Assembly: GCF_015244705.1 (NCBI RefSeq)
Contig: NZ_JABCQF010000007.1
Location: 1-64,000 of the forward strand
Source of the DNA: Gluconobacter potus
GTDB taxonomy: Bacteria; Pseudomonadota; Alphaproteobacteria; Acetobacterales; Acetobacteraceae
Length of the DNA: 64,000 bases
Direction: 5' to 3'
Of the stretch, positions 47,654 through 64,000 are shown piece after piece (positions within the stretch are counted from its first letter, which is position 1; each line of letters starts with the position of its first letter). Made by a program: the position numbers and the translations under genes. The notes under the pieces are model-generated. The model did no database searches. It was not told the origin of the DNA and saw only the letters and a program-made list of their open reading frames with translations.

Positions 47654-48082
47654 TCAGTGCCCTTTGCGAAAGCGCGTCGAGAGGATGATGGCGGAGACGG
47701 TCCGCTCCACCCCTTCCATCTGCCCGATATCGTCAATGGCGCGATTGATGTTTTCGGTCGTGGCGGCCCCCAGCAGGGCAATCAGGTCCGAGGCACCGCT
47801 GACCGCATGCAGTTCCCGCAGTTCGGGCAGTGTTTTCAGGTCCCGCTCCACTTTCTGCCGGTGGCGCGGTGTGAGCACGATCGAGACATGGGCGCGCACC
47901 AGATCCTCGTCCGGATTTTCGAGAAGCGTATAGCCCCGGATCCGTCCCTGCCGCTCCAGACGTTCCATGCGTCCCTGCAGAGTCGTGCGGGAGATCCCCA
48001 GCCGGCGCGCCAGCGCGGCTGTGGGGGTTCGCGCATTGCGGCGCAGGATATCGAGAAGAGCCTGATCGATCGGATCCGTCAT
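47654..48082 (-). CDS. Lrp/AsnC family transcriptional regulator
   Basis: A 142-residue regulator. The N-terminal helix-turn-helix DQALLDILRRNARTPTAALARRLGISRTTLQGRMERLE is followed by the RAM ligand-binding domain (about 65-140), with the GASDLIALLGA segment. It is divergent from an amino-acid dehydrogenase gene with a 121-base gap, consistent with amino-acid responsive control. The ATG at 48082 was chosen; an upstream TTG at 48103 is also in frame. Confidence 0.9.
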   Translation of the reverse strand: MTDPIDQALLDILRRNARTPTAALARRLGISRTTLQGRMERLERQGRIRGYTLLENPDEDLVRAHVSIVLTPRHRQKVERDLKTLPELRELHAVSGASDLIALLGAATTENINRAIDDIGQMEGVERTVSAIILSTRFRKGH

Positions 48083-48203
48083 TCTGACTGTTATAGACGG
48101 CAATCTGCCGTTGGGAATAGCTTTTTGCCGTCACGCTGCCGCTTGAGATCCGTCGGCCCAGACCCTGATCCTGTCCGTAACACTTCCGGAACAGGATATG
48201 ATC

Positions 48204-49280
48204 ATGAAGCAGGTTACGGTTGCAGGCGCGGGCAAGATCGGTTCAGCCATTGCGGAGCTTCTTCATCACGGCGGCTATCATGTGACGCTGCTTGACTGTC
48301 ATGCGGAGTATCTCAACAGCCTGAAACTGCCCGAAGGCATTGCACGCCAGACCGCTGATATCGCCCAGGGCCTTGATCCGGATCTGCTGAAGGGACAATT
48401 CGCCGTCCTGTCCGCGCTTCCCTTTCACCTGACACGCCCTGTCGCGCGCGCCGCAGCCGCAGCGGGTGTGCATTATCTGGACCTGACCGAGGACGTGGCA
48501 TCCACCCGTGACGTGAAGGCGCTGGCCGAGGGCGCGTCGCATGCGTTCATTCCTCAGTGTGGTCTGGCACCGGGTTTCGTCTCCATTGCCGCACATGATC
48601 TGGCCGGGCATTTCGACGAGATCGATACGATCCGGCTGCGTGTCGGAGCGCTGCCGCGTTTTCCGTCCAATGCGCTGGGATACAACCTGACCTGGAGCAC
48701 GGAAGGCCTCATCAACGAATATATCGAACCCTGTGAGGCGATCGTGGATGGGAAGCGCATCCTCGTTCCCGCGCTTGAGGGCATGGAAAGCCTGGGTGTC
48801 GATGGCGTTCTTTATGAGGCTTTCAACACGTCCGGCGGTCTGGGCTCGTTGTGCGAAACCTATGACGGCCGGGTCCGGGAACTCAATTATCGCACCATGC
48901 GATATCCGGGTCATCGCGATATCATGAAGGTTCTCCTATCCGATCTGCGGCTGTCGGAACGGCGGCATATCCTTCAGGATATCCTGACCCACGCCATTCC
49001 CGGAACGGCTCAGGATCTGGTGGTGCTGTCGGTTATCGTGACGGGGCTACGGGATGGTCGGCAGCAGCAGGAAACGCTGGCCCGGACCATTCACGCGCAG
49101 GAGTTCATGGGCGGATACCGGACTGCAATTCAGCTCACGACAGCCGGGTCCATCTGCGCGGTTCTGGACCTGCTCGCAGAAGGGAAGATTCCGTCGGCAG
49201 GCTTTGTCCGTCAGGAAGATATTCCGCTGTCCGCCTATCTGTCGAACCGCTACGGGCGGGTCTATCAACCGCAGGGCTGA
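48204..49280 (+). CDS. saccharopine dehydrogenase family protein (lysine dehydrogenase-like)
   Basis: A 358-residue protein. The N-terminal Rossmann fold has TVAGAGKIGSAIAELL, then a catalytic middle part with YLDLTEDVASTR and PQCGLAPGFVSIAAHDLA, which matches the saccharopine dehydrogenase/lysine-6-dehydrogenase-like group. These catalyse NAD(P)-dependent oxidative deamination or amine ligation of basic amino acids. The divergent AsnC regulator fits amino-acid control. I start at 48204 with AGGA 8 bases ahead; 48198 leaves no spacing. The exact substrate is not clear. Confidence 0.84.
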   Translation: MKQVTVAGAGKIGSAIAELLHHGGYHVTLLDCHAEYLNSLKLPEGIARQTADIAQGLDPDLLKGQFAVLSALPFHLTRPVARAAAAAGVHYLDLTEDVASTRDVKALAEGASHAFIPQCGLAPGFVSIAAHDLAGHFDEIDTIRLRVGALPRFPSNALGYNLTWSTEGLINEYIEPCEAIVDGKRILVPALEGMESLGVDGVLYEAFNTSGGLGSLCETYDGRVRELNYRTMRYPGHRDIMKVLLSDLRLSERRHILQDILTHAIPGTAQDLVVLSVIVTGLRDGRQQQETLARTIHAQEFMGGYRTAIQLTTAGSICAVLDLLAEGKIPSAGFVRQEDIPLSAYLSNRYGRVYQPQG

Positions 49281-49286
49281 ACTGCT

Positions 49287-50339
49287 TTATGCGCAGTTCA
49301 GGATCCGGACCAGCAGGATGCTGGCCCCCAGAAGGCCGGCCAGGGACATCGCGACTGTCAGGACCAGCGGTCGTCCCGCCCGGAAGACGGAACGGATATC
49401 GATCCCCAGACCCAGTGCTGCCATGGCCAGAATGGTCAGGAATGTGGCGGTCTGGCTGAGGGGAGCGATGCAGGCTTCGGGAATGACGCCAAGGGACCGG
49501 ACGATGATCATCGCCATGAAGCCCGCGATATACCACGGGACAAGGCGGAACAGCCTTTGGGTTTTGCCCGTGCCGGAAGGTTTCAGTGGCTGCGTCCGGG
49601 CGTTGTTGCGATGAACCGTCAGTGACAGAACGGCGCAGACCGGGCCCAGCATGAGAACGCGCATGAGCTTGACGAGCGTTCCGACATGCAGCGCGGCGGG
49701 ACCGAACGGCGCGGCGGCCGCCATGACCTGTGGAACCGCATAGACCGTCAACCCGGCGACGGCGCCATTGGCGATCCCGGACATGTTCAGGAAGGGGAGC
49801 AGGACAGGCAGCCCCAGAACGACCGCCAGACCACCTGCGGCGGTAAAGGCGATTGTCGCGCCGACATCCTCATCAGACGCCTGAATGGCAGGGGCGGCGG
49901 CCATGATGGCAGAATTGCCGCAGATGGAATCGCCACAGGCCACAAGCAGGGTCTGATTCCGAGACAGGCCATTCATCCGTCCGGCCCAGCAGGTGAAGAT
50001 CATGCTGAAGATCACCATCCCCAGAACGGCGAGCAGGATTTCAGGTCCGGCAGACCAGACGGCCTGAAGGCTGAAAGTCGTGCCCAGAAGGACGATCGCA
50101 ATGTTGAGGAGTGTCTTCGAGCAGAACCTGATCCCGCAATTGAAGGTGTCTGCGGGTTTGCGGACAGACCGCAGGATGACGCCCAGGATGAGCGCGATAT
50201 TCAGGGTCTCCAGAAAGGCTTTACCAGCCAGGATCCGTTCCACGTGCTCGAGACCAAAAGCCGCAAGCGCAATACCGATGCACAGGGCCGTTCCCGGAAA
50301 GCGGGACACGAGGTCTCCCGCGGGCGATAGGGTCTTCAC
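49287..50339 (-). CDS. YeiH family (UPF0324) membrane protein
   Basis: A 350-residue protein with about 10-11 helices. KTLLNIAIVLLGTTFSL and NQTLLVACGDSICGNSAIMAAAPAI are the family signatures, with the C-terminal MAALGLGIDIRS also conserved. YeiH proteins are described as putative sulfate exporters. The start is GTG at 50339 with AAGGAGAG 6-8 bases ahead; an ATG at 50384 is in frame but has no ribosome-binding site. It is divergent from a LysR gene, the usual YeiH/LysR pairing. Confidence 0.87.
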   Translation of the reverse strand: MKTLSPAGDLVSRFPGTALCIGIALAAFGLEHVERILAGKAFLETLNIALILGVILRSVRKPADTFNCGIRFCSKTLLNIAIVLLGTTFSLQAVWSAGPEILLAVLGMVIFSMIFTCWAGRMNGLSRNQTLLVACGDSICGNSAIMAAAPAIQASDEDVGATIAFTAAGGLAVVLGLPVLLPFLNMSGIANGAVAGLTVYAVPQVMAAAAPFGPAALHVGTLVKLMRVLMLGPVCAVLSLTVHRNNARTQPLKPSGTGKTQRLFRLVPWYIAGFMAMIIVRSLGVIPEACIAPLSQTATFLTILAMAALGLGIDIRSVFRAGRPLVLTVAMSLAGLLGASILLVRILNCA

Positions 50340-50377
50340 GATATGCTCTCCTTGATCGTGAAGATTTAGGGAGAGGA

Positions 50378-50435
50378 CAATCAATCAATCCAACGCATAA
50401 ATTTCATGATTCCAATCAGAAAAATCGATTGATTG
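50378..50435. promoter_or_regulatory. inverted repeat in the YeiH/LysR divergent promoter
   Basis: CAATCAATC (50378-50386, extended by another AATC) and GATTGATTG (50427-50435) are perfect 9-bp inverted copies separated by 40 bases. Both lie between the two divergent start codons and are A+T rich relative to the surroundings. They are good candidates for paired LysR binding sites, possibly with DNA looping. A classic T-N11-A motif was not singled out. Confidence 0.5.
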
Positions 50436-50450
50436 TGCTATCCATTGCCC

Positions 50451-51365
50451 ATGACTCTTGATCAGCTCCGTCTCTTCATCGCTGTTGCCGAACGCGAACA
50501 CGTCACTGCTGCGAGCCGGGCGATGAACGTCACCCAGTCCGCGGTCTCGGCGGCTATTGCGGCTCTGGAAGAGCGTTACGGGGTCAGGCTTTTTGATCGG
50601 GTGGGACGGGGCATCCGTCTGAGCGAGGCGGGACATCTGTTTCTGCCCGAGGCCCGTGCGGTCGTCGCGCAGGCCGCTGCGGCAGAAAACATTCTGGATG
50701 AGATCAGCGGGCTGAAGCAGGGAACGCTTCGTGCTGTGGCGAGCCAGACCATCGCTGCGTACTGGATTCCGTCCATTCTGGTCGCTTTCCGCAGAAAATA
50801 TCCGCAGATCAAGGTCGAACTGGCCGTCAGCAATACCGAAGAGGCCGCGAAGAAGGTCCGGGAAGGGGAGGCTGAACTGGGGATCGTGGAAGCGATTGTC
50901 GATGATCCAGCGCTCGCTCAGTGGCCGCTGGGAAAAGACAATCTGACCATTGTGCAGGCGGACGCCGGGGTTCCTGCACATGCTGACAGGGAATGGCTGC
51001 GCAAACAGGTCTGGGTGATGCGGGAGCCGGGATCGGGGACGCGGGCTACGCTGGAACACTATCTCCGGCGTCTTGGGATCGCGCCCGATGAGCTGAATGT
51101 CAGTCTGGTCCTGCCATCGAATGAGAGCGTACGCACCGCCATCGAGGCAGGAGCGGGGATTGGTGCGCTGTCATCGCTGGTGGTTGCCCCGGCGCTGCTG
51201 GCGGGGACGCTTCATGCGGCATCAGAGGTGCCGGAAAGCCGCTTTTTCTATGGGCTGAGGCATAAGGAACGTTACAGAAGCCCTGCTGCCGATGCGTTTG
51301 TGGAGATGATCGATCTTGCAAACAAGGGGCACGGGCCGCAGCCCGAAAGTGGACGCCAGACATGA
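50451..51365 (+). CDS. LysR family transcriptional regulator (YeiE/CysB-like partner of YeiH)
   Basis: A 304-residue LysR protein. The N-terminal HTH has HVTAASRAMNVTQSAVSAAIAALE, and the effector domain starts near residue 90, ending in a variable tail. LysR proteins next to YeiH often respond to sulfur compounds (YeiE in E. coli senses sulfite), but the effector here is unproven. Start at the ATG at 50451; a TTG at 50433 extends the frame without support. It ends at the terminator shared with the convergent cspA gene. Confidence 0.9.
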   Translation: MTLDQLRLFIAVAEREHVTAASRAMNVTQSAVSAAIAALEERYGVRLFDRVGRGIRLSEAGHLFLPEARAVVAQAAAAENILDEISGLKQGTLRAVASQTIAAYWIPSILVAFRRKYPQIKVELAVSNTEEAAKKVREGEAELGIVEAIVDDPALAQWPLGKDNLTIVQADAGVPAHADREWLRKQVWVMREPGSGTRATLEHYLRRLGIAPDELNVSLVLPSNESVRTAIEAGAGIGALSSLVVAPALLAGTLHAASEVPESRFFYGLRHKERYRSPAADAFVEMIDLANKGHGPQPESGRQT

Positions 51366-51898: not shown

Positions 51899-52558
51899 TT
51901 AATTCTTGCAGACCAGGCGGCATATCGTTTCGATATTAAAGGCAATTCTTTCTTCAAGCGCTTCGGGGGCTGTAAAATCCCGCTCGAAGATTACCGATCC
52001 CGTGAAGCGGTTCGTGAAATAATAATAATTGATCGAGGCGATCGTGATGTTCAGCTGGGCCGCGTCAATGCCGTCGCGGAAGATGTTTTCCCGAACGCCC
52101 CGGTCCAGAAGGGACTGGATGCGGCGGACGAATTTCTGACTGATCGTCTTCAGTGTAGGCGAGTTCCGGATATGGGCGGCCTGACAGAGGTTCTCGCTGT
52201 TCACGAGGGTGATGAACTCGGGATTGGCGATGTAATATTCCCATGTGAAGCGGACGAGCGTTTCGAGCGCTGTCCTGGGGGGCAGGTTCTCCAGATCCAG
52301 TCTGGTCTCTTCCTCCCGGATGTTGAGATATTCCCGCTCCAGGACGGTGCGGAAGAGGCCGTCCTTACTTTTGAAGTAGTGGTAGAGCATCCTCTTGTTG
52401 GCCTTGGCATCGAGGGCGATCGTATCGACCCGTGCGCCTTCAAGCCCGTTTCGGGCAAATTCCTTCTTCGCCGCTTCGAGAATGCGTAATTTCGTGGCCT
52501 CCGCGTCCCTGACGCGCTTTTTCGTAGAGGAGGACGCTCTGCTTTTCTCAAGGGGCAT
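51899..52558 (-). CDS. TetR family transcriptional regulator
   Basis: A 219-residue regulator. The helix-turn-helix (about residues 25-70) contains LEGARVDTIALDAKANKRMLYHYFKSKDGLF, the TetR signature. The C-terminal ligand-binding domain has SINYYYFTNRFTGSVIFERDF, resembling the RutR-like group. It is divergent from a 10-gene catabolic island 336 bases away. Two clean 20-bp palindromes and one degenerate copy at island promoters are the best candidates for its operators. The lysine/arginine-rich N-terminus (residues 1-20) is an extra DNA contact seen in some TetR proteins. Confidence 0.9.
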   Translation of the reverse strand: MPLEKSRASSSTKKRVRDAEATKLRILEAAKKEFARNGLEGARVDTIALDAKANKRMLYHYFKSKDGLFRTVLEREYLNIREEETRLDLENLPPRTALETLVRFTWEYYIANPEFITLVNSENLCQAAHIRNSPTLKTISQKFVRRIQSLLDRGVRENIFRDGIDAAQLNITIASINYYYFTNRFTGSVIFERDFTAPEALEERIAFNIETICRLVCKN

Positions 52559-52894
52559 CAGGGGTTTGTTCCGCTCTCAGTAGGGGTGCTCTTTCTGGGG
52601 GAAACCGCCCCAAAAGAAAAGCGGATCGTAAAATCACACTTAAAGTACGAAAAAATATCAACGTAACGTGATTTCATGCTGGCGCGCCCCTGCGATATGT
52701 GTAAGTAACTACATGGTGCGTTGTGCGTTAGGAAGTTGGAACCCGAGCGTCTGTGGTCAAATGCAGGTGAGGGTCATCCGTGATTAAGAATTGCATGTTG
52801 TAATATCTCTCGGGGTTTCCAGTTCATAAGAATAAAACCGGGCTGTTCATCGTAAAAGGGATGGAAGCGCCATAGTCAGCAGGAAATAAGTCTC
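52559..52894. other. 336-base regulatory region between TetR and aldehyde dehydrogenase genes
   Basis: Holds the divergent promoters. It is A+T-richer than the coding sequence on either side. A degenerate operator-like site is at 52705-52724. TGGGG/CCCCA around 52596-52612 could form a small hairpin. No coding sequence longer than a few dozen codons is visible, and no tRNA or known riboswitch was found. AGGAAATAAGTCTC precedes the ATG at 52895. Confidence 0.45.
52705..52724. promoter_or_regulatory. degenerate TetR operator candidate
   Basis: GTAACTACATGGTGCGTTGT matches the consensus palindrome GTAACTAACNNGTTAGTTAC at about 14 of 20 positions in one orientation; the left half (GTAACTA) is intact. 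It lies 171 bases upstream of the aldehyde dehydrogenase ATG. Weaker than the sites at 56071 and 59055. Confidence 0.35.
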
Positions 52895-54391
52895 ATGAAT
52901 GTTGTCTCAAAGACTGTATCTTTACCGTTAAAGCCGCGTGAGTTCAAATTCTTCATTGATGGCGAATGGCGCGCTGGTAAGGATTTCTTCGATCGCTCTT
53001 CGCCAGCCCATGATGTTCCCGTCACCCGTATTCCACGCTGCACCCGTGAGGACCTTGATGAGGCGGTAGCTGCGGCGCGTCGTGCCTTTGAGAACGGAAG
53101 CTGGTCCGGCCTGCCGGCTGCGGATCGTGCGGCGGTTCTCCTGAAAGCCGCGGGCCTGCTGCGCGAGCGGCGCGATGATATCGCTTACTGGGAAGTTCTC
53201 GAAAACGGCAAACCAATCAGTCAGGCGAAGGGCGAGATCGATCACTGTATCGCCTGCTTCGAGATGGCTGCCGGCGCTGCGCGTATGCTGCATGGTGATA
53301 CGTTCAACAATCTGGGCGAGGGGCTGTTCGGCATGGTCCTGCGGGAGCCCATCGGTGTTGTCGGTCTGATCACGCCATGGAACTTCCCGTTCATGATCCT
53401 GTGTGAGCGCGCGCCGTTCATTCTCGCATCCGGCTGCACGCTGGTCGTCAAGCCTGCCGAGGTCACGAGTGCCACGACGCTTCTTCTGGCGGAAATCCTT
53501 GCCGATGCCGGACTGCCGAAGGGTGTCTTCAATGTCGTGACGGGTACGGGGCGCACTGTTGGTCAGGCCATGACCGAGCACCAGGATATTGACATGCTGT
53601 CCTTCACGGGCTCGACGGGGGTTGGCAAGTCCTGCATCCACGCAGCGGCTGACAGCAATCTGAAGAAGCTGGGTCTCGAACTGGGCGGCAAGAACCCGAT
53701 CGTCGTATTCGCGGACAGTAACCTCGAGGATGCGGCCGATGCGGTAGCTTTCGGGATCAGCTTCAACACCGGGCAGTGCTGTGTGTCGTCGAGCCGTCTG
53801 ATCGTAGAGCGGTCCGTGGCCGAGAAGTTCGAACGTCTCGTTGTGGCGAAAATGGAGAAGATCCGCGTCGGCGATCCGTTCGATCCCGAGACGCAGATCG
53901 GCGCCATTACGACGGAAGCGCAGAACAAGACCATTCTGGACTATATCGCGAAAGGCAAGGCCGAGGGCGCCAGGCTCCTCTGTGGTGGCGGGATCGTCGA
54001 TTTCGGCAAGGGGCAGTATATCCAGCCCACGCTTTTCACGGATGTGAAGCCCTCGATGGGCATCGCGCGTGACGAGATTTTCGGGCCGGTTCTGGCGTCC
54101 TTCCATTTTGATACCATCGATGAAGCGATCACGATTGCCAATGACACGGTTTACGGCCTGGCCGCATCGGTCTGGAGCAAGGATATCGACAAGGCGCTTG
54201 CCGTGACCCGTCGTGTTCGCGCCGGCCGCTTCTGGGTGAACACCATCATGAGCGGTGGTCCCGAGACGCCGCTGGGTGGTTTCAAGCAGTCGGGCTGGGG
54301 CCGTGAAGCCGGTCTGTACGGTGTTGAGGAATATACGCAGATCAAATCTGTCCATATCGAAACTGGCAAACGTTCGCACTGGATTTCGTAA
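52895..54391 (+). CDS. aldehyde dehydrogenase family protein
   Basis: A 498-residue NAD(P)-dependent aldehyde dehydrogenase. TPWNFPF is near residue 165, GSTGVGK near 245, the general base in LELGGKNP near 265 and catalytic Cys296 in FNTGQCC. The sequence is typical of the betaine-aldehyde/general ALDH class. It is the first gene of the island, and its TAA overlaps the ATG of the GMC dehydrogenase by one base, so both likely act in sequence: alcohol to aldehyde to acid. The same pairing occurs in choline and polyethylene glycol oxidation clusters, but the substrate here is not known. Confidence 0.92.
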
Positions 54392-55986
54392 TGACGAGCG
54401 GTTTTGATTACATCGTTGTCGGTGGCGGTTCGGCTGGCTGTGTTCTCGCAGCCCGCCTTTCCGAAAATCCTTCCGTCCGTGTCTGCCTCATTGAGGCCGG
54501 CCGGCGGGACACGCATCCCCTGATCCACATGCCGGTCGGTTTCGCGAAGATGACCACGGGGCCGCATACCTGGGATCTTCTGACGGAGCCGCAGAAACAT
54601 GCGAACAACCGCCAGATCCCCTATGTGCAGGGCCGGATTCTGGGTGGCGGATCGTCCATCAATGCGGAAGTCTTCACGCGGGGGCATCCTTCCGACTTCG
54701 ACCGCTGGGCGGCGGAAGGTGCGGATGGCTGGAGCTTCCGGGATGTCCAGAAGTACTTCATCCGTTCCGAAGGCAATGCCGTGTTTTCGGGTGCCTGGCA
54801 TGGCACGAACGGGCCGCTCGGGGTGTCCAACCTCGCGGACCCGAACCCGACCAGCCGTGCGTTCGTGCAGAGCTGTCAGGAAATGGGGCTGCCCTATAAC
54901 CCTGACTTTAATGGCGCATCGCAGGAAGGCGCAGGCATCTATCAGATGACCATCCGGAACAACCGGCGCTGCTCGACGGCTGTGGGGTATCTGCGTCCGG
55001 CCCTGGGGCGGAAGAACCTGACGGTTGTGACGCGGGCGCTGGTCCTGAAGATCGTCTTCAACGGGACGCGGGCGACGGGTGTGCAGTATATTGCCAACGG
55101 CACCCTGAATACTGCCGAAGCGAGCCAGGAAATCGTTGTGACGGCCGGAGCGATCGGAACGCCGAAGCTGATGATGCTGTCGGGCGTCGGGCCTGCCGCG
55201 CATCTTCGCGAAAATGGTATCCCGGTCGTGCAGGATCTGCCGGGCGTGGGCGAAAATCTTCAGGACCATTTCGGCGTGGATATCGTGGCCGAGCTCAAGA
55301 CGGATGAGAGCTTCGACAAATACAGGAAACTGCACTGGATGCTCTGGGCAGGTCTTGAATACACCATGTTCAGATCCGGTCCCGTTGCATCCAACGTGGT
55401 TGAGGGCGGCGCGTTCTGGTACTCGGACCCGTCTTCGGGTGTTCCTGATCTCCAGTTCCATTTCCTTGCGGGGGCAGGGGCTGAAGCAGGGGTGACGTCC
55501 GTTCCCAAGGGGACCTCCGGGATTACGCTGAACAGCTATGTGCTACGGCCGAAGTCCCGCGGAACCGTCCGGCTGCGTTCGGCAGATCCGAGGGTCAATC
55601 CGATGGTCGATCCCAATTTCCTTGGAGACTCGGCCGACCTTGAAACGTCTGCGGAAGGTGTGCGTCTGAGCTACGAGATGTTCTCTCAGCCGTCCTTGCA
55701 GAAGCACATCCGGAAAACCTGCTTCTTTAGCGGTAAACAACCGACGATGCAGATGTATCGCGACTATGCGCGGGAACATGGCCGGACGTCCTATCATCCG
55801 ACATGCACCTGCAAGATGGGTCGTGATGACATGTCCGTCGTCGACCCGCGTCTGAAAGTGCACGGGCTTGAGGGCATCAGGATCTGTGACAGCTCGGTCA
55901 TGCCGTCGCTGCTCGGTTCCAACACCAATGCTGCGACGATCATGATCAGTGAGCGGGCAGCGGATTTCATTCAGGGGAACGCCTGA
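54391..55986 (+). CDS. GMC family FAD-dependent alcohol dehydrogenase
   Basis: A 531-residue flavoprotein. [17 protein letters not shown] binds the FAD ADP part. The GMC signature [18 protein letters not shown] lies near residue 80, and the catalytic pair is His469 (SYHPTCTC) and an asparagine in LGSNTNAAT. No signal peptide, so the enzyme is probably cytoplasmic, unlike the periplasmic dehydrogenases typical of acetic acid bacteria. Choline-dehydrogenase-like members oxidise primary alcohols. Its start overlaps the aldehyde dehydrogenase stop (TAATG). Confidence 0.93.
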
Positions 55987-56070
55987 TCCGGGATTTCCCC
56001 GCATCACCTGAAAACACGCAATAGCGGAAAAGTCTTGCTGCCATGCCGGGCTTTTTCATTCGAAATTACA

Positions 56071-56090
56071 GTAACTAACCAGTTAGATAC
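56071..56090. promoter_or_regulatory. 20-bp palindromic operator upstream of the CoA-transferase gene
   Basis: GTAACTAACCAGTTAGATAC: 9-base half-sites with a 2-base centre, mirror-symmetric at 8 of 9 positions. It ends 14 bases before the CoA-transferase ATG, near enough to block transcription or translation. The same motif occurs at 59055-59074. This is the expected size and symmetry of a TetR site. Confidence 0.7.
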
Positions 56091-56104
56091 AAAGGCATTG
56101 GAAG

Positions 56105-57676
56105 ATGACGAAAGTCAGGACAGCGACTGAGGCTGTGAGCCTCATCAGGGACGGAGCCATGGTTGCCGTCAATTCGTCCTCGGGGCTTCTGTGTCCCGAC
56201 GCGGTTCTTGAGGCACTGGGACAGCGTTTCGAGGCTACGAAATCTCCATCTAAACTGACGACCATCCATCCGATTGCCGCAGGTGACATGTTCGGGACCA
56301 AGGGCGTGGACCATCTTGCCCGTCCTGGCATGATCACGAAGATCATCGGCGGCTCCTATCCTTCGGGGCCGAGCAATGCCGAGCCGCCGCTGATCTGGCA
56401 GCGCATCCAGGCAGAAGATCTGGCCGCCTATAACGTTCCGTCCGGGGTAATTTTCGACATGCTGCGGGAAGGGGCGGCAAAGCGTCCCGGCGTCCTGACC
56501 AAGGTCGGGCTTGATACCTTCGCAGACCCGAAGCGTGATGGCTGCGCGATGAATGAGACGGCACGGCTGAATCCGCTCGTCCGTCACATGGATTTCGAGG
56601 GCGAGGACTGGCTGTATTTCCCGGCGTTGCGTCCGGACGTAGCCATCATTCGTGGTTCGACGGCGGATGAAAACGGCAACCTGACCTTTGAGCAGGAAGG
56701 TGCGACGCTCGGTGCCATGGAAATGGCTCTGGCGGCCCATAACAATGGCGGTCTGGTAATTGCACAGGTCCGTCGTGTGGCGGCGCAGGGCACGCTCAAG
56801 CCGCATGATGTCAAGGTTCCCGGTATTCTGGTGGACGTGATCGTCGAAGCACCGGAGCAACTCCAGACAACCGCAACGGCCTATGATCCCGCCATTTCCG
56901 GTGAGATTTTCCGCCCGCTCTCCACATTCGACATTCCGGATTTTGGCCCGTCCAAAGTCATGGCCCGTCGCGTGGCGCAGGAGCTGAAGCAGGGCTGGGC
57001 CGTGAATATCGGTTTCGGCATTTCCGCGAATGTTCCCCGTATTCTTCTGGAAGAAGGGCGTCATGGCGCGGTGACATGGGTGATCGAACAGGGAGCCGTG
57101 GGTGGCATTCCGCTGCTGGACTTCAAGTTCGGCTGCGCCAGTAATGCCGAGGCCTTTGTCGCATCGCCCCATCAGTTCTCGTATTTTCAGGCGGGTGGCT
57201 TCGACTGCTCCCTCCTGTCCTTCCTTGAGATCGGACAGAACGGTTCGGTGAATGTCAGCCGTTTGGCCGCCACACCGCATCGTACGGCGGGAGCCGGTGG
57301 GTTTGTGGATATTACGGCGCGGGCCAAGCGCATCATTTTCTCGGGCAATTTCAATGCCGGAGCGAAGATGCATATCGAGGGCGGCCGTCTGGTGATTGAT
57401 AAGGAAGGCAAGATCGCAAAAATCGTGCCCGAAGTGTCGCAGGTCAGTTTTTCCGGTGGCCGTGCCACCGAAACCGGGCAGGAGATCACTTATGTGACGG
57501 AGCGTTGCGTTCTGAGGCTGCTGGATGGCAAGCTGACGGTCACTGAAATCGCGCCGGGGATCGACTTGCAGCGTGACCTTCTGGATCAGGCGACGGCTCA
57601 TCTCGAGGTGTCGCCCGATCTGAAGGAAATGGACGCGGCCCTGTTCCGTGATGAACCCATGGGACTGACCCTGTGA
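56105..57676 (+). CDS. family I CoA-transferase (YdiF/propionate CoA-transferase type)
   Basis: A 523-residue protein carrying both family I CoA-transferase halves in one chain. The first half has GLDTFADPKRDG and VAIIRGSTADENGNLTFE; the second starts around residue 300 and has the catalytic glutamate in WVIEQGAVGGIP (Glu328), then GQNGSVNVSR and GAGGFVDIT. Such enzymes move CoA between acetyl-CoA or succinyl-CoA and short carboxylic acids. It would activate the acid made by the aldehyde dehydrogenase. A 20-bp palindrome just upstream suggests it starts a separate TetR-controlled unit with the glycerate kinase gene. Confidence 0.9.
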   Translation: MTKVRTATEAVSLIRDGAMVAVNSSSGLLCPDAVLEALGQRFEATKSPSKLTTIHPIAAGDMFGTKGVDHLARPGMITKIIGGSYPSGPSNAEPPLIWQRIQAEDLAAYNVPSGVIFDMLREGAAKRPGVLTKVGLDTFADPKRDGCAMNETARLNPLVRHMDFEGEDWLYFPALRPDVAIIRGSTADENGNLTFEQEGATLGAMEMALAAHNNGGLVIAQVRRVAAQGTLKPHDVKVPGILVDVIVEAPEQLQTTATAYDPAISGEIFRPLSTFDIPDFGPSKVMARRVAQELKQGWAVNIGFGISANVPRILLEEGRHGAVTWVIEQGAVGGIPLLDFKFGCASNAEAFVASPHQFSYFQAGGFDCSLLSFLEIGQNGSVNVSRLAATPHRTAGAGGFVDITARAKRIIFSGNFNAGAKMHIEGGRLVIDKEGKIAKIVPEVSQVSFSGGRATETGQEITYVTERCVLRLLDGKLTVTEIAPGIDLQRDLLDQATAHLEVSPDLKEMDAALFRDEPMGLTL

Positions 57677-57716
57677 TTTTCGACCCTTGCGCCAGACGGA
57701 CAGACAGGAACTGACC

Positions 57717-58979
57717 ATGATGCTTCAGGACCGCATGTTTCTGACAGGACTCTTCGACGCCGCCGTTGGCGCGGCCGAGCCGGAGCAGATCCTGGCGGCA
57801 CATCTGCCCGAGCCTCCAAAGGGCCGGACGGTTGTGGTTGGTGCCGGCAAAGGAGTGGCCCAGCTGGCCGCGGCTTTCGAGCGTGTCTGGAGAGGGCCGC
57901 TCAGCGGGGTAGTGGTCACGCGTTACGGAAATGTCTGTCCGACGCAGTTCATCCGTGTGATGGAGGCTTCGCATCCGGTGCCGGATGAGGCGGGTCTGAA
58001 GGCTACGGAGGCGCTTTTCGAGACGGTAAAAGGGCTTGGGCCGGACGATCTCGTCGTGGCGCTCATCTGTGGCGGCGGGTCGGCTCTGCTGCCCTCTCCG
58101 CCACCGGGAATGACGCTTGAGGACGAGGCCGAACTGAACCGTGTCCTGCTCGCGTCAGGCGCGCCGATTTCCGTCATGAACAGCATCCGCAAGCAGGTGT
58201 CGGGCATCAAGGGCGGCCGCCTGGCGGCTGCGGCGGCTCCGGCGAAGGTCGTGTCTCTGGTGGTGTCGGATGTTCCTTTTGACGATCCTGCCCAGGTGGC
58301 CTCCGGGCCTACGGTGCCGGATCTGGGAACGCGAGAGGATGCCCGCCGTCTGGCGAAGACGTGGAAACTGCGCCTGCCCGAAAAGGTCCAGTCATGGCTG
58401 GAGGGGGAAGAGGGACGCGCACCGCTGGCGACCGATCCGGTCTTCAGCAGGAATGAGGTGCGGGTGATTGCCTCCGCCCATCTGTCGCTGGAAGCGGCGG
58501 CAGAGAAGGTTCGAGAGGCGGGGATCTATCCCGTGATTCTGTCGGATGCGATCGAAGGGGAGTCCCGGGACGTCGCCAAGGTTCATGCCGCAATGGTGCG
58601 GGAAGTCATCCTGAGGGGACGGCCTTTCCGCCGCCCGGTCGTCATCCTGTCAGGGGGGGAAACCACTGTAACCATACGCGGGCAGGGTGGCCGGGGAGGA
58701 CGCAATACCGAGTTCCTTCTGGCTTTTGCGCTGGCGGCGGAAGGTCTGCCGTTTTCGGCTCTGGCGGCGGATACCGATGGCATTGACGGCTCGGAAGACA
58801 ATGCCGGGGCCTTTGCCGACGGTGTCAGTATGGAGCGCCTGAGGGAGAAGGGATTCAATCCCACAGATCTTCTGATGGAGAACGATGCCTATACCGCGTT
58901 CGAGGCGCTGGGAGACCTGTTTGTTCCGGGGCCAACCGGGACGAACGTCAATGATTTCAGAGCCGTACTGGTTCGCTAG
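57717..58979 (+). CDS. glycerate 2-kinase (GckA/TtuD/MOFRL family)
   Basis: A 420-residue kinase that makes 2-phosphoglycerate from glycerate and ATP. The N-terminal domain has VVVGAGKGVAQLA and LICGGGSALLPSP, and the MOFRL domain shows ILSGGETTVTIRGQGGRGGRNTEF and AADTDGIDGSEDNAGA. AGGA is 7 bases ahead of the ATG at 57717. It is 40 bases after the CoA-transferase. Its presence implies that the pathway yields glycerate or hydroxypyruvate/tartronate semialdehyde, which would then enter lower glycolysis. Confidence 0.92.
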   Translation: MMLQDRMFLTGLFDAAVGAAEPEQILAAHLPEPPKGRTVVVGAGKGVAQLAAAFERVWRGPLSGVVVTRYGNVCPTQFIRVMEASHPVPDEAGLKATEALFETVKGLGPDDLVVALICGGGSALLPSPPPGMTLEDEAELNRVLLASGAPISVMNSIRKQVSGIKGGRLAAAAAPAKVVSLVVSDVPFDDPAQVASGPTVPDLGTREDARRLAKTWKLRLPEKVQSWLEGEEGRAPLATDPVFSRNEVRVIASAHLSLEAAAEKVREAGIYPVILSDAIEGESRDVAKVHAAMVREVILRGRPFRRPVVILSGGETTVTIRGQGGRGGRNTEFLLAFALAAEGLPFSALAADTDGIDGSEDNAGAFADGVSMERLREKGFNPTDLLMENDAYTAFEALGDLFVPGPTGTNVNDFRAVLVR

Positions 58980-59054
58980 GACCGGCTCGGAAAGCTTCAA
59001 TAATGATTGATTGGTGAGTGTGGCGAAAGCCGTAGTCTTTAACAGTTTTCAATA

Positions 59055-59074
59055 GTAACCATCTAGTTAGTTAC
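59055..59074. promoter_or_regulatory. 20-bp palindromic operator upstream of the acyl-CoA dehydrogenase gene
   Basis: GTAACCATCTAGTTAGTTAC: the right half GTTAGTTAC is the exact mirror of the left half GTAACTAAC at 56071, and the left half differs at two positions. Flanking A and T extend the symmetry by one base. It ends 16 bases before the ATG at 59091. Confidence 0.68.
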
Positions 59075-59090
59075 TTATGTGGAGTCGGCT

Positions 59091-60233
59091 ATGTTTCTGA
59101 ACGAAATGCAGGAAGAAGTCCGCGAAACGACACGGTCTTTCGTGGATAACGTCATCCGTCCCGCCGCCGAGGCGCTGGACCGCGAAGAGCGCTTCCCGGC
59201 AGAAATCTATGAAGAAATGGGCAAGTTGGGCCTGTTCGGTATCGCAGTTCCGGAAGAGCTTGGGGGGCCGGGTTTTGACACGCTGACCTATGCGGTCGTG
59301 ATGGAAGAACTGTCCCGCGGCTATGCCAGCGTTGCCGACCAGTGCGGTCTGGTGGAGCTGATCTCCACGCTTCTGGTCCGTCACGGAACGCCGGAACAGC
59401 AGAAGATGCTGCCCGACATCCTCTCCATGAAGCGCAAGGTCGCCTACTGTATCACGGAGCCCGAGGCTGGCACCGACGTGTCCGGTATCCGCACGACCGC
59501 CGTGCGCGACGGCGACGGCTGGGTGCTCAACGGCGGCAAGATCTGGATCCATAACGCGCCGGTCGCCGATACGGGCTTCGTTCTGGCTCGGACTGACAAG
59601 GAAGCGGGCAACCGCGGCATGTCCATTTTCATCGTGGATCTACATGCCAAGGGCGTCGAGCGTGGCCCCAAGGAGCACAAGATGGGCCAGCGGGCGAGCC
59701 AGGTTGGCGCGCTCGACTTCTCGGATGTCCGCCTGGGGAGCGATGCGCTGCTGGGCGAGATGAACCGTGGTTTCCACATGATGATGAGCGTGCTCGACAA
59801 GGGCCGCGTCGGCATTGCGGCACTGGCCGTCGGTATTGCTCAGGCCGGGCTTGAAGCGGCCGTGGATTATGCCGGAACGCGCAAGCAGTTCGGCAAGCAC
59901 ATCTCCGAGTTCCAGGGCGTGCAGTGGCTTCTGGCTGACATGGCCAAGGACATCGAGGCGGCGCGGCTTCTGGTCCATTCGGCTGCCACGAAGATCGATC
60001 GCGGGCAGGATGCTACGCGCTCGTGCTCCATGGCCAAGTGCTTTGCCGGTGACATGGCGGTGGCCCGGACGGCCGATGCCGTACAGGTCTTTGGCGGTTC
60101 GGGCTATATCCGTGGCTTCGAGGTCGAGCGTCTGTACCGCGATGCCAAGATCACCCAGATCTATGAAGGTACCAACCAGATCCAGCGCATGATCATCGCG
60201 CGTGAACTGCTCCGTAAAGGCGCACGGGCATGA
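59091..60233 (+). CDS. acyl-CoA dehydrogenase
   Basis: A 380-residue FAD enzyme that forms a trans-2,3 double bond in acyl-CoA. CITEPEAGTDVSG is the N-terminal signature, RKQFGKHISEFQ the C-terminal one, and the catalytic base is Glu359 in YEGTNQIQ, as in short/medium-chain enzymes. Electrons go to EtfBA, encoded at the end of the same unit. I use the ATG at 59091 with GGAG 6 bases ahead. It overlaps the SDR gene by 4 bases. Confidence 0.94.
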   Translation: MFLNEMQEEVRETTRSFVDNVIRPAAEALDREERFPAEIYEEMGKLGLFGIAVPEELGGPGFDTLTYAVVMEELSRGYASVADQCGLVELISTLLVRHGTPEQQKMLPDILSMKRKVAYCITEPEAGTDVSGIRTTAVRDGDGWVLNGGKIWIHNAPVADTGFVLARTDKEAGNRGMSIFIVDLHAKGVERGPKEHKMGQRASQVGALDFSDVRLGSDALLGEMNRGFHMMMSVLDKGRVGIAALAVGIAQAGLEAAVDYAGTRKQFGKHISEFQGVQWLLADMAKDIEAARLLVHSAATKIDRGQDATRSCSMAKCFAGDMAVARTADAVQVFGGSGYIRGFEVERLYRDAKITQIYEGTNQIQRMIIARELLRKGARA

Positions 60234-60997
60234 GACAGGTCGCTCTCGTCACCGGTTCCTCACGGGGTATCGGTTTCGCGACGGCGCAGGCTCTGGCGAA
60301 ACGGGGCTTCGCTTTAGCGGTCAACGGACCGTTCGATGACGAGGAACTGCGCTCGGCCGTCAGCCGTCTGTCCGAAACCGGAGCGTCCGTCATGGCGCTC
60401 CCGTTCGACATCACGGATCTGTCTGTCCACGCGGAGCGTCTGGCGCAGGTCGAGGCTAAGCTTGGGCCGCTGACGACGCTCGTGAACAACGCGGGCGTCG
60501 GCGTCCTTCAGCGTGGCGACCTGCTGGATGTGAGTGAAGCGAGCTGGGACCGCTGCCTGACGGTGAACACCAAGGCGCTGTTCTTTCTCTCGCAGGCTTT
60601 CGCAAAGCTGCTCCTGTCCCGTCCGCGGCCCGGGGGCGTGTTTCATTCCATCGTGAATGTGACGTCGTCCAACGCCACGGCCGTGGCGGTCCAGCGCTCC
60701 GAATACTGCGCGTCCAAGGCGGCTGCCGCGATGGTGTCCAAGGCTCTGGCCGTTCGGCTCGGACCTGAAAACATCGCGGTCTATGACGTCCAGCCCGGCC
60801 TGATCGCGACCGACATGACAGCGGCCGTGATCGAGCAGTATCGCCAGCGTGCCGTGGACGGTCTGACCCTGCTGCCGCGCGTCGGTGAGCCTGAGGACAT
60901 GGGCGGCATCATCGCAACCCTTGCTTCGGGCGGACTTCCCTACACCACAGGCCAGGTGATTTCGGCGGATGCCGGAATGCTTGTGCCGCGTTTCTGA
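60230..60997 (+). CDS. short-chain dehydrogenase/reductase (3-ketoacyl reductase-like)
   Basis: A 255-residue SDR. The cofactor motif TGSSRGIG, then NNAGVG, the catalytic YCASK and a C-terminal end GQVISADAGM are as in FabG-like enzymes. A 3-hydroxyacyl-CoA or keto-sugar substrate is possible. The ATG overlaps the acyl-CoA dehydrogenase stop (ATGA), so stoichiometric synthesis is likely. Cofactor choice is not clear: N at the end of strand beta 2 (VNGPF) does not decide it. Confidence 0.91.
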   Translation: MRQVALVTGSSRGIGFATAQALAKRGFALAVNGPFDDEELRSAVSRLSETGASVMALPFDITDLSVHAERLAQVEAKLGPLTTLVNNAGVGVLQRGDLLDVSEASWDRCLTVNTKALFFLSQAFAKLLLSRPRPGGVFHSIVNVTSSNATAVAVQRSEYCASKAAAAMVSKALAVRLGPENIAVYDVQPGLIATDMTAAVIEQYRQRAVDGLTLLPRVGEPEDMGGIIATLASGGLPYTTGQVISADAGMLVPRF

Positions 60998-61005
60998 GAG
61001 CGGTC

Positions 61006-62157
61006 ATGAAAATCATTCTTCCCGATGAAACCGGCCGGAAGACGGACTATCACCTGATCGGAACACCGGCTCCGACAGGAACACTGGGCCGTAATCCGGC
61101 GCGGATCGTTTATTCCGCAGCGCATGTCGTCGCCAATCCCTATGCAGCGAAGGACCCTTCAGGATCCGGTGCAATCGACTGGGAGCGGACGATGGAGTTC
61201 CGCCGCTATCTTGCGGGTCTGGGGCTGGGCATTGCTGAAGCCATGGATACGGCCCAGCGGGGTATGGGTCTGGACTGGCCGATGGCGCTTGAGCTGATCC
61301 GCCGGACGAAGGCGGAACTGCCGGACGCCGACGTCGTCAATGGCTGCGGAACTGATCATCTGGATCCGGCAAGCGTGCGGAATGTGGATGCAGTCATCCG
61401 CGCCTATCTGGAACAGGTCGAGGCCATTCAAGCCGTTGGTGGCCGGATCATCCTGATGGCGAGCCGGGCACTGGTCCGTGTGGCGAAAGGTCCGGAAGAC
61501 TATCTGCGCGTCTATCGCGAAGTTCTCTCGGCCTGCGATGAACCGGTCGTCCTGCACTGGCTGGGAGAGGCGTTCGACCCTGCACTGGCCGGATACTGGG
61601 GCACGAACAGTTTCGATCAGGCGCTGGAAACCGTGCTGGAAATGATCGGGCAGAACGTCTCCAAGGTGGACGGCATCAAGATTTCCCTTCTGGACAAGGA
61701 GAAGGAAATCCGGATGCGCCGTCTGCTTCCGGCCGGCGTGAAAATGTATACCGGGGATGACTTCAACTACCCGGAACTGATCGAAGGCGACGAGCAGGGC
61801 TTCAGCCATGCGCTCCTGGGCGTTTTCGATCCGCTGGCGCCGCTGGCCGCCTATGCTGTGAGCAAACTCGGCGAAGGCGACAAAGCCGCTTTCCGCGCGG
61901 CGCTGGACCCCACGGTTCCGCTGGCCCGGGTGATCTTCAAGGCTCCGACCCAGTATTACAAAACGGGTGTCGTATTCCTGGCATGGCTGAACGGCTTTCA
62001 GGATCACTTCATCATGCTGGGTGGTGCGCAGTCCATGCGACCTCTCCCGTATTTTACGGAGATCTTCCGGCTGGCGGATGGCTGCGGGTTGCTCCGCAAT
62101 CCGGAACTGGCCGTCCGGCGCATGAAGTCGCTTCTGTCGCTCTATGGAGCCGACTGA
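61006..62157 (+). CDS. DUF993 family, dihydrodipicolinate-synthase-like TIM barrel protein
   Basis: A 383-residue protein of the DUF993 family, related to class I aldolases of the DapA superfamily. A candidate Schiff-base lysine sits in KVDGIKISLLD, near residue 225, which aligns in context with the DapA GIK motif. GDDFNYPELIEGD and PTQYYKTGVVFLAWLNG are typical of the family. No member has, to my knowledge, a firmly known reaction. DUF993 genes often lie next to a sugar-phosphate-isomerase-like gene, as they do here. Aldol cleavage of a keto-acid or keto-sugar is a plausible role in this island. Confidence 0.83.
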   Translation: MKIILPDETGRKTDYHLIGTPAPTGTLGRNPARIVYSAAHVVANPYAAKDPSGSGAIDWERTMEFRRYLAGLGLGIAEAMDTAQRGMGLDWPMALELIRRTKAELPDADVVNGCGTDHLDPASVRNVDAVIRAYLEQVEAIQAVGGRIILMASRALVRVAKGPEDYLRVYREVLSACDEPVVLHWLGEAFDPALAGYWGTNSFDQALETVLEMIGQNVSKVDGIKISLLDKEKEIRMRRLLPAGVKMYTGDDFNYPELIEGDEQGFSHALLGVFDPLAPLAAYAVSKLGEGDKAAFRAALDPTVPLARVIFKAPTQYYKTGVVFLAWLNGFQDHFIMLGGAQSMRPLPYFTEIFRLADGCGLLRNPELAVRRMKSLLSLYGAD

Positions 62158-63014
62158 TGCGCGACTTCACCCACGATCATTCCGCGCTGGCCCTGAATAC
62201 CGCGACCCTCGGCCATAACATGCCGGGGGCAGGGGCCGGATGGTCCGCCGAACGGACAATCGACGCCTGCGCCGAGCGTGGCATCGGCGGCATCGTCTTC
62301 TGGCGTCCGGAACTTCAGGGCCGGGCTTCGGCCATCGGGCAGCACGCCCGGCAGGCCGGAGTGGAGATCGTGGGTCTGTGCCGTTCGCCGTTTCTTGTGG
62401 GGCCTCTGGCGCCACACGGACGGCAGGCGGTCGTGGATGATTTCCGTCGTTCCATCGACGAGACCGCCGATCTGGGAGGCAAGATTCTGACCATCGTGGT
62501 GGGGGGCGTCGAGCCCGGCACCAAGGGGGTGAGGGAGAGCCTCGATATTGTCACGGACCGTCTGTCGGCAGTGCTGGACTACGCATCCGAACGGGGCGTC
62601 AAGCTGGCTCTGGAGCCGCTGCATCCGATGTATGGCGGGGACCGCTCCTGCCTGCCGACACTGCGTGATGCCCTGGATATCTGCGACGTCCTCAATTCCG
62701 ACACGCTGGGTGTGGCGGTCGATGTCTATCACGTGTGGTGGGACACCGATCTTCCGCGCCAGCTTGAACGGGCAGGGACGCGCATCATGGGGTTCCATCT
62801 GTGTGACTGGCTCGTGCCGACGACGGATTTTCTTCTGGATCGCGGGATGATGGGGGACGGCGTGGCGGATCTGAAAGGTCTCCGCGCGGGTGTGGAACGC
62901 GCGGGATATGACGGGTTCTGCGAAGTCGAGATTTTTTCTGCAAACAACTGGTGGAAGCGCGATCCGGCCGAAGTGCTGGATGTGATGATACAGCGCTTCC
63001 GCGATATCTGCTGA
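62157..63014 (+). CDS. sugar phosphate isomerase/epimerase-like TIM barrel protein
   Basis: A 285-residue TIM barrel of the xylose-isomerase-like/AP endonuclease 2 superfamily. Metal-binding motifs are visible in [15 protein letters not shown] (near residue 150), [12 protein letters not shown] (near 190) and [12 protein letters not shown] (near 260). Such proteins isomerise or epimerise keto-sugars or dehydrate inositol derivatives. The ATG shares one base with the DUF993 stop, with GGAG 7 bases ahead. The coupling of the two genes suggests consecutive or joint action. Confidence 0.86.
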
Positions 63015-63028
63015 GAACGGAGAGTATC

Positions 63029-63790
63029 ATGAAGATCCTCGTCCCTGTGAAACGGGTCGTCGACTATAACGTCCGCATCCGCGTCCGGCCGGATGGGTCT
63101 GGCGTTGATCTGGCGAACGTCAAGATGTCCATGAACCCCTTTGACGAAATCGCGGTCGAAGAGGCCATTCGTCTCAAGGAAAAGGGCGTGGCGACCGAAG
63201 TGGTCGTCGTCTCCATCGGTGTCGCGCAGGCGAAGGATACGCTGCGGACCGCCCTCGCCATGGGAGCGGACCGCGCCATTCTCGTGACGGCAACGGATGA
63301 TGTGAACGTCGATCTGGAGCCGCTTTCGGTGGCGCAGATCCTGAGCAAGGTCGTGGCAAACGAACAGCCTGGTCTGGTGATCGCGGGCAAGCAGGCGATC
63401 GACAACGACATGAATGCGACCGGCCAGATGCTTGCCGCCCTGCTGGGCTGGGGGCAGGGCACGTTCGCCTCTTCTGTTACGATCGAGGACGGTTCGGCGC
63501 TGGTGACACGTGAAGTCGATGGTGGTCTTCAGACCATCAAGCTGAAGCTTCCGGCCGTGGTGACGACGGACCTGCGTCTCAACGAACCCCGCTATGTGGC
63601 GCTGCCCAACATCATGAAAGCGAAGAAGAAGCCGCTTGAAGAGGTGTCGCTCGACACGCTCGGCGTCGCGGTTCGCTCGCGTCTGACAGTTCTGAAGACG
63701 GTCGAGCCACCGCAGCGCCATGCCGGCGTGAAGGTCGGCTCTGTCGATGAACTGGTGTCGAAACTGAAGAATGAAGCAGGAGTCCTCTGA
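63029..63790 (+). CDS. etfB: electron transfer flavoprotein beta subunit
   Basis: A 253-residue protein that begins [14 protein letters not shown], the standard ETF-beta N-terminus, and has [26 protein letters not shown] and the adenine-nucleotide motif [12 protein letters not shown]. With EtfA it carries electrons from the acyl-CoA dehydrogenase to ETF-ubiquinone oxidoreductase. GGAG is 7 bases before the ATG at 63029. It is 14 bases after the TIM barrel gene and overlaps etfA by one base (TGATG). Confidence 0.95.
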
Positions 63791-64000
63791 TGTCTGTTCT
63801 GCTACTTGCCGAAGTCAATGAAGGGCGTCTGGGAACGGATATTGTCGCCAAGGCCCTGACGGCGGTTGCCACGCTGGGTGACGTGCATGTTCTCGTCACG
63901 GGCGAGAACTGCGCGGCAGCGGCCGACGAGGCGGCGAAACTGGCGGGTGTGTCGAAGGTTCTTCTGGCGGATGATGCATCTCTGGCGCACGGCCTTGCCG
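63790..64000 (+). CDS. etfA: electron transfer flavoprotein alpha subunit, partial
   Basis: The first 70 codons ([20 protein letters not shown] and on) match the N-terminal domain of EtfA, with VHVLVTGENC and AGVSKVLLADDA typical. The gene continues past the right edge, so the FAD-binding domain cannot be seen. The start overlaps the etfB stop by one base. An ETF-ubiquinone oxidoreductase gene is not in the window. Confidence 0.92.
   Translation, partial: MSVLLLAEVNEGRLGTDIVAKALTAVATLGDVHVLVTGENCAAAADEAAKLAGVSKVLLADDASLAHGLA

Follow-up and report, generated by a model that had tools for sequence, protein, structure and literature searches.

A Widespread Gene Set Around DUF993 in Gluconobacter potus and Its Predicted Role in CoA-Dependent Catabolism

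The window analyzed here, 64,000 bases of Gluconobacter potus that form positions 1–64000 of a 150,151-base contig (C7) in a 3.42-Mb, 99.96% complete genome, carries at 51899–64000 an island of one divergent TetR gene and ten plus-strand genes, as delimited by open reading frames (ORFs) and Pfam. The run extends from an aldehyde dehydrogenase (ALDH) to the alpha subunit of an electron transfer flavoprotein (EtfA), and between them lie genes for a GMC alcohol dehydrogenase (GMC), a YdiF-type CoA-transferase (CoAT), a glycerate 2-kinase type kinase (GK), an acyl-CoA dehydrogenase (ACAD), an SDR dehydrogenase, a DUF993 protein, a xylose-isomerase-like TIM barrel (TIM), and EtfB (table 1). We find that this island is a real and widespread variant, of which no description was found among the literature matches listed. 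Our favored hypothesis, to which we assign a probability of roughly 0.5, is that a conserved TetR-controlled gene set imports a neutral sugar-like compound, oxidizes it, loads it onto CoA, desaturates it, and cleaves it with DUF993, so that part of it would leave as glycerate and 2-phosphoglycerate. Directly observed are the gene content, its recurrence, a palindrome common to the sites, the relation of DUF993 to a known fold, and a genome in which ECH_1, MaoC, and Thiolase_C have no match.

Recurrence of the Gene Set

Relatives of the DUF993 protein were collected by scanning a single genome for each species, with the best 80 of 137 kept. Their neighbors were mapped by BLAST against open frames, the reference proteins being taken from the window and a Paracoccus plasmid. 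Of 398 genomes sampled across the phylum, 36 have DUF993, versus none of 14 control genomes. Within Gluconobacter it occurs in 12 of 26 genomes, and among the best 80 of 137 relatives the nearest, in G. vitians and G. roseus, are 97% identical. Several other acetic acid bacteria also encode it. The module ranges across the Rhizobiales and Rhodobacterales, and further taxa carry altered versions (rearranged in Janthinobacterium, rearranged and partial in Rhodococcus); its carriers include many bacteria of soil, of plants, and of the sea. Given this distribution, the island is not the one-strain curiosity for which it might have been taken. The gene set recurs with DUF993 at dozens of loci and thus is not a chance assembly. 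Among 55 loci of at least 19 kb, the partners of DUF993 are TIM (53), SDR (53), ACAD (52), CoAT (45), GMC (41), AKR2 (41), ALDH (34), the enoyl-CoA hydratase family gene ECH (34), and GK (19); these counts are lower bounds because the flanks were at most 10 kb, and both this set and the set of 60 loci used below overlook genes past the flanks or at contig ends.

In its fullest form the module comprises TetR; genes for a substrate-binding protein, permease, ATPase, permease, alcohol dehydrogenase, ALDH, and GMC; AKR1; CoAT, ECH, and GK; AKR2; and finally ACAD, SDR, DUF993, TIM, EtfB, and EtfA. This form is found in Paracoccus (L085/L088), Roseateles (L086/L089, with ETF-quinone oxidoreductase, ETF-QO, added), and Sinorhizobium (L087/L090), and the annotation table of the last omits some genes that neighbor mapping recovers. 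The gene for the substrate-binding protein lies at L088:7337-8449 (minus strand) in Paracoccus kondratievae and at L090:8578-9690 (plus strand) in Sinorhizobium. The features of what we name type D, that is, the ACAD-SDR-DUF993-TIM-Etf block, CoAT, GMC/ALDH, and the palindrome, are all in the island. In a DUF993 tree of 45 hand-picked rows, 19 acetic-acid rows including the window cluster together with support of 99/97, surrounded by rows from Rhodobacterales and Rhizobiales, and L078, from an acetic acid bacterium, falls outside it. Based on this topology, a single gain followed by loss of ECH would fit the acetic-acid group. Beside the module on a plasmid of Sagittula sp. P11 (L096:20043-29448) lie genes for a degradative HMG-CoA reductase, a TRAP transporter, and a 3-keto-5-aminohexanoate cleavage protein with a 3-hydroxyacyl-CoA dehydrogenase.

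At least four further gene sets around DUF993 occur among the fetched examples. Set A is Gfo/Idh-DUF993-TIM, which at L130 lies behind an NMT1-type transporter and in Erwinia is joined by a glycerate kinase and an MFS transporter. Set B is DUF993/LacI-Gfo-CoAT-ECH-ALDH with a sugar ABC transporter; set C is Gfo-CoAT-ECH-ALDH-ABC-GMC-SDR-GMC-DUF993-LacI, with a glycerate kinase in three of five examples (L145, L148, and L159, not L147 and L157); and set E is ECH-CoAT, TetR, and SDR-DUF993-TIM. DUF993 thus often accompanies a potential ketone-maker (SDR or Gfo) and often CoAT and ECH, and ACAD is not always present. The set at L130:4850-11557 includes a weak, sub-cut-off match to the enolase superfamily, perhaps reflecting another substrate class for the family. 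On a plasmid of Streptomyces sp. NBC_00557 (L098:9998-11185) the DUF993 gene stands immediately 5' of a type I polyketide synthase, which raises the possibility of a biosynthetic role for the family as well.

A Shared Palindrome

Comparison of the gaps before CoAT and ACAD revealed a common palindrome, (G/A)TAAC(C/T)N4(A/G)GTTA(C/T). Over 95 loci (1.82 Mb) it has 165 matches, of which 163 fall within the 350 bases that precede a cluster gene, two lie near no identified gene, and none lies inside one; 65 of the loci have an upstream site. Five shuffles that kept only base counts gave a mean of 0.4 matches. The 165 matches are not independent cases, since loci are related or partly duplicate (L014 and L085; L085–L087 and L088–L090; many close orthologs). 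A narrower 16-base form, drawn from the two island sites themselves, matches exactly at 56071 and 59055; at up to two mismatches, seven matches were seen in the window (overlaps and both strands counted) versus 0.19 by chance, and at up to one mismatch the genome holds no third site. Because the backward control likewise gives two matches (1+1) at up to one mismatch and the pattern is self-derived, only the exactness and the absent third site count as support. A strict form lacks an exact match in the window and has one mismatch at each site, and two such sites arose in 1 of 100 shuffles. Among individual genomes, Paracoccus has three sites (control 0) and Shinella two in the cluster (control 2+2). 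One site in G. roseus, where the control gave 1+1, lies at C1:16873 and was not assigned to the cluster; the palindrome was not found in Gluconacetobacter liquefaciens. Relatives of the island TetR, 53–98% identical, adjoin the same module at other loci by neighbor mapping. We therefore predict from sequence that the island forms one TetR-controlled regulon.

DUF993 and the Missing Hydratase and Thiolase

Pfam reports PF06187 alone for the DUF993 protein. A solved structure exists for the family (4dnh), which has the TIM-barrel fold of the dihydrodipicolinate synthase (DHDPS, PF00701) family, and K225 is near-invariant in it; our literature search turned up no paper that mentions DUF993 by name. 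The protein is predicted to be a Schiff-base C–C lyase with its conserved lysine at the putative Schiff-base position. The C–C cleavage step that the first-pass annotation had placed in the island fits this fold and lysine.

The same annotation had noted that a hydratase was missing from the visible part. The gene does not simply lie farther on: neither reading on to about C7:76000 nor searching the genome for ECH_1 and MaoC recovered one. Pfam profiles for ECH_1, MaoC, and Thiolase_C have no match in the G. potus genome, other hydratase and thiolase families not having been searched, and the control searches with ECH_1, Thiolase_C, and MaoC were positive in 13, 12, and 8 of 14 genomes. In the genus, ECH_1 is found in 4 of 26 genomes and Thiolase_C in none. 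The island ACAD is the sole full Acyl-CoA_dh_1 match in the genome, next to a partial one at C1:527683 (25 bits; cut-off 22.4). Thus, the scheme of classical beta-oxidation does not fit the steps, and we dropped ordinary beta-oxidation by these families. Since whole-genome searches found no classical hydratase or thiolase, DUF993 is the likely agent of C–C cutting.

Among the 60 loci with ACAD, DUF993, and CoAT, 12 are without ECH, and 11 of these are from acetic acid bacteria; the only acetic-acid locus with ECH is L078 (L014 being the same place as L085). The hydratase-like step may have been lost, replaced, or unneeded in acetic acid bacteria. The clustered ECH proteins are themselves unusual, in that the first crotonase Glu is kept in 60 of 61 and Arg stands at the position of the second in 57 of 61; we take both Glu residues to be catalytic. 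The glycerate kinase is often accompanied or replaced by Dabb and MaoC genes (28 of 60 loci, e.g., L096:14147-14935), and kinase, Dabb, and MaoC occur together at nine. This arrangement suggests a variant pathway ending.

Proposed Pathway and Alternatives

Under our hypothesis, the compound would be imported by the MFS protein behind the island (by ABC transporters elsewhere), and GMC and ALDH would convert a CH2OH group to a carboxylate, from which the CoA-transferase would form the thioester. ACAD would then pass two electrons to EtfAB and through ETF-QO to ubiquinone. With oxygen on the alpha or beta carbon, the product would be an enol that turns to a ketone unaided, and so no hydratase would be needed. 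The SDR and the TIM barrel would place the ketone, at which DUF993 would form an imine and, taking over the part of thiolase, break a C–C bond. The resulting glycerate, formed directly or by oxidation of glyceraldehyde, would be phosphorylated to 2-phosphoglycerate, and CoA would be handed back via the CoA-transferase. In its most specific form, in which a sugar-acid CoA thioester is desaturated to an enol or ketone and DUF993 represents a new class of Schiff-base lyase that cuts the chain with neither hydratase nor thiolase, we hold the proposal only tentatively; if true, it would be a new way to dismantle sugars that sends electrons straight to the quinone pool. The island's own ETF-QO and, in Gluconobacter, a sugar porter at its end favor a neutral sugar or a cyclitol as substrate over a polyether, one of the substrates suggested earlier. 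Considered and not adopted were 1,5-anhydroglucitol and other cyclic ethers, galactosyl- and glucosylglycerol, carbasugars, levoglucosan, and polyethers. PDB entries 2rjo and 4r2b, which probably hold galactose and glucose, were not used as evidence; papers in which these codes turned up employ them, judging by title, in other senses.

Several observations weigh against this hypothesis. The profile alignment that sets K225 on the DHDPS lysine, presumably the Schiff-base residue, is weak (probability 18.6%, E 0.0013), and of three DHDPS sequences aligned individually, one places K225 on the lysine, one shows it displaced, and one does not reach it. Neither the GTTGE pyruvate-binding motif nor the active-site Tyr of DHDPS is kept (DTAQR, read by eye, replaces the former, and H184 stands at the position of the latter), and the model of the protein is uncertain at residues 82–84, within the pyruvate-motif region. 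An ECH-family gene occurs in 48 of the 60 loci and a MaoC gene in 28, so a hydratase-like step belongs to the usual form of the module, and three DUF993-bearing Gluconobacter carry ECH_1 somewhere in the genome. The kinase is present in only 26 of the 60 loci, which makes glycerate doubtful as a universal product. DUF993 is also found in gene sets that lack CoA genes, and the binding of TetR to the palindrome is itself a prediction.

In one alternative, DUF993 is a Schiff-base dehydratase or isomerase, and chain cutting falls to the TIM barrel or to an unlinked enzyme. DHDPS-fold families include dehydratases, which we count in favor of this alternative together with the loss of the pyruvate-aldolase motif. 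PF01261 enzymes, moreover, perform eliminations and hydrations in levoglucosan catabolism, according to the parts of PMC10066097 available to us. The island proteins, however, include no further C–C lyase, decarboxylase, or thiolase family by Pfam, and the absent third operator site in the genome means that the operator test found no further regulon member; we regard this alternative as conceivable, though doubtful.

Rather unlikely, in our estimate, is the coexistence of two processes in one regulon: a sugar part (GMC, ALDH, SDR, TIM, DUF993, and GK) following a nonphosphorylative aldolase route and a separate short acid handled by CoAT, ACAD, and ETF, the acid arising only as a by-product or aglycone of the substrate they share. 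The Erwinia and L130 sets, which combine DUF993 with TIM, oxidoreductase, and glycerate kinase or with the NMT1-type transporter without any CoA gene, are consistent with such a division, as is the block order of CoAT-(ECH)-GK versus ACAD-SDR-DUF993-TIM-Etf. Nevertheless, ACAD, SDR, and DUF993 form one tight block and ACAD accompanies DUF993 at nearly all of the 55 loci, and the fetched stretches of types B and C hold CoAT and ECH with DUF993 and show no ACAD, which argues that the CoA and DUF993 chemistries go together. Improbable to us is a route in which a hydroxylated acyl chain undergoes ordinary beta-oxidation and genes elsewhere provide the hydratase and thiolase. The presence of ACAD, EtfAB, ETF-QO, a CoA-transferase, and a 3-ketoacyl-reductase-like SDR, and of ECH in or near most clusters, would suit it; the empty genome and genus searches and the Arg of the clustered ECH proteins speak against it, as do the cluster tables of Paracoccus, Roseateles, and Sinorhizobium, which are incomplete and name no thiolase.

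Gene Content and Surroundings

Table 1. Features of the island and the genes that follow it (C7 coordinates continue past the window).
Feature	Position	Strand	Basis and reading
TetR-family regulator	51899..52558	-	TetR_N + TetR_C_29 (Pfam); divergent; predicted island regulator
Palindrome copy, weak and incomplete GTAACTACATGGTGCG	52705..52720	+	TetR/ALDH gap; no score at <=2 mismatches, uncertain
ALDH	52895..54391	+	Pfam Aldedh, 569 bits; probably NAD type
GMC FAD alcohol dehydrogenase, choline-dehydrogenase-like	54391..55986	+	Pfam GMC_oxred N+C; 1-base overlap with ALDH
Palindromic site GTAACTAACCAGTTAG	56071..56086	+	Before CoAT; predicted TetR operator
CoAT, class I, YdiF type	56105..57676	+	Pfam CoA_trans, 105 bits
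GK, glycerate 2-kinase type	57714..58979	+	Pfam DUF4147 + MOFRL
Palindromic site GTAACCATCTAGTTAG	59055..59070	+	Before ACAD; predicted TetR operator
ACAD, short-chain type	59091..60233	+	Pfam Acyl-CoA_dh N+M+1; Glu in YEGTN motif
SDR dehydrogenase	60230..60997	+	adh_short, 154 bits; NF009386 "3-ketoacyl-ACP reductase," above cut-off
DUF993 protein	61006..62157	+	Pfam DUF993 (PF06187), 586 bits; DHDPS/N-acetylneuraminate lyase-type fold, K225 conserved; predicted Schiff-base C–C lyase
TIM, xylose-isomerase-like	62157..63014	+	AP_endonuc_2 (PF01261); conserved E153, D189, H214, E256/E258
EtfB	63029..63790	+	Pfam ETF
EtfA	63790..64000, on to C7:64716 past the window	+	ETF_alpha; start overlaps EtfB stop
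ETF-QO	C7:64760-66409, just past the window		Fer4_ETF_QO + ETFQO_UQ-bd
Sugar-porter MFS	C7:66519-67919, past the window		After ETF-QO
Type I GAPDH	C7:67988-69007 (L003:3989-5008), past the window		After the MFS gene

The gene list, strands, tight run, and divergent TetR gene reported in the first-pass annotation are all borne out by Pfam and ORF spacing, and its reading as a CoA-dependent catabolic island is supported by the gene set. Intergenic distances are, in bases, −1 (ALDH/GMC), 118 (GMC/CoAT), 37 (CoAT/GK), 111 (GK/ACAD), −4 (ACAD/SDR), 8 (SDR/DUF993), −1 (DUF993/TIM), and 14 (TIM/EtfB), with a divergent gap of 336 between TetR and ALDH. ALDH reached no NCBIfam cut-off among the matches listed, and the kinase scores 219 bits against NF041176, under its cut-off of 550. 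YdiF (2ahu) is the sole PDB sequence matching the CoA-transferase at E ≤ 1e-20 (E 6.6e-101). The ACAD Glu in YEGTN, which we take to be catalytic, is present in 69 of 73 cluster ACADs more than 70% identical, the motif not being found in the remaining four. PDB relatives of the TIM barrel are 3ju2 (SMc04130) and 3qc0; SMc0413x locus tags appear as rows of an expression table in the available part of PMC12542648.

Other Gluconobacter loci retain the GAPDH gene behind the island; it could help convert 2-phosphoglycerate to sugars or may be unrelated. Farther on, translations of ORFs at L003:7762-13418 (C7:71761-77417) resemble ATP synthase beta and alpha subunits with an a-subunit-like ORF between, presumably akin to a second, N-type ATP synthase cluster. 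To the left, at 47654–51365, translations suggest Lrp-like, saccharopine-dehydrogenase-like, YeiH-like membrane protein, and LysR genes.

The island provides DUF993 with a setting, a likely reaction class, and a predicted operator that bounds its regulon. In the Gluconobacter host, where no classical hydratase or thiolase was found that could blur a result, both this orphan family and a sugar route for which no description was found become directly testable. Overall, CoA-dependent catabolism, the lack of a matching pathway, and C–C cleavage survive from the earlier interpretation, and its placement of the hydratase, the presumed rarity, and the polyether do not.

Comparison with Known Systems

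The first-pass annotation held that the combination matches no known pathway; literature searches likewise found, among the matches listed, no described pathway with the full gene set. DUF993 differs from DHDPS and N-acetylneuraminate lyase in forming a separate Pfam family and in length (383 vs. ~292 residues), in addition to the motif and Tyr discussed above. Classical beta-oxidation shares with the island an ACAD with EtfAB and ETF-QO, but the genome has no match to ECH_1, MaoC, or Thiolase_C and a sugar porter adjoins. The 3-keto pathway of levoglucosan (LgdA/B1/B2/C) also employs a PF01261 TIM barrel, and DUF993 relatives elsewhere pair with Gfo/Idh/MocA; in the available part of its description, however, it has no CoA or ETF step (PMC10066097). 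GFO_IDH_MocA, the family of levoglucosan dehydrogenase, has no Pfam match in the island, the rest of the genome not having been searched. The nonphosphorylative Entner–Doudoroff pathway resembles the island in combining a DHDPS-fold aldolase, an ALDH, and a MOFRL-type glycerate 2-kinase that yields 2-phosphoglycerate. It differs in that the island has no sugar-acid dehydratase family by Pfam, and the pathway itself offers no role for CoA-transferase, ACAD, or ETF.

Among described routes, the oxidative deoxyribose/deoxyribonate pathway of Pseudomonas simiae comes closest in logic; in the part of PMC6365646 available to us, it proceeds from sugar to acid, to an SDR-made 3-keto compound, to thiolase-free cleavage of the sugar chain, and through a glycerate kinase to 2-phosphoglycerate. 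Its cleaver, however, is a beta-keto acid cleavage enzyme, and the steps proposed in that part are without ACAD, ETF, or DUF993 (PMC6365646). The beta-keto acid cleavage family is not represented by Pfam among the ten island and five Gluconobacter proteins, the rest of the genome not having been searched. Deoxyribonate itself was not adopted as the substrate, as it would not need ACAD. The glycerate kinase feature of this pathway is shared by the island through its DUF4147 and MOFRL protein, a kinase that we presume to be of another class than GarK.

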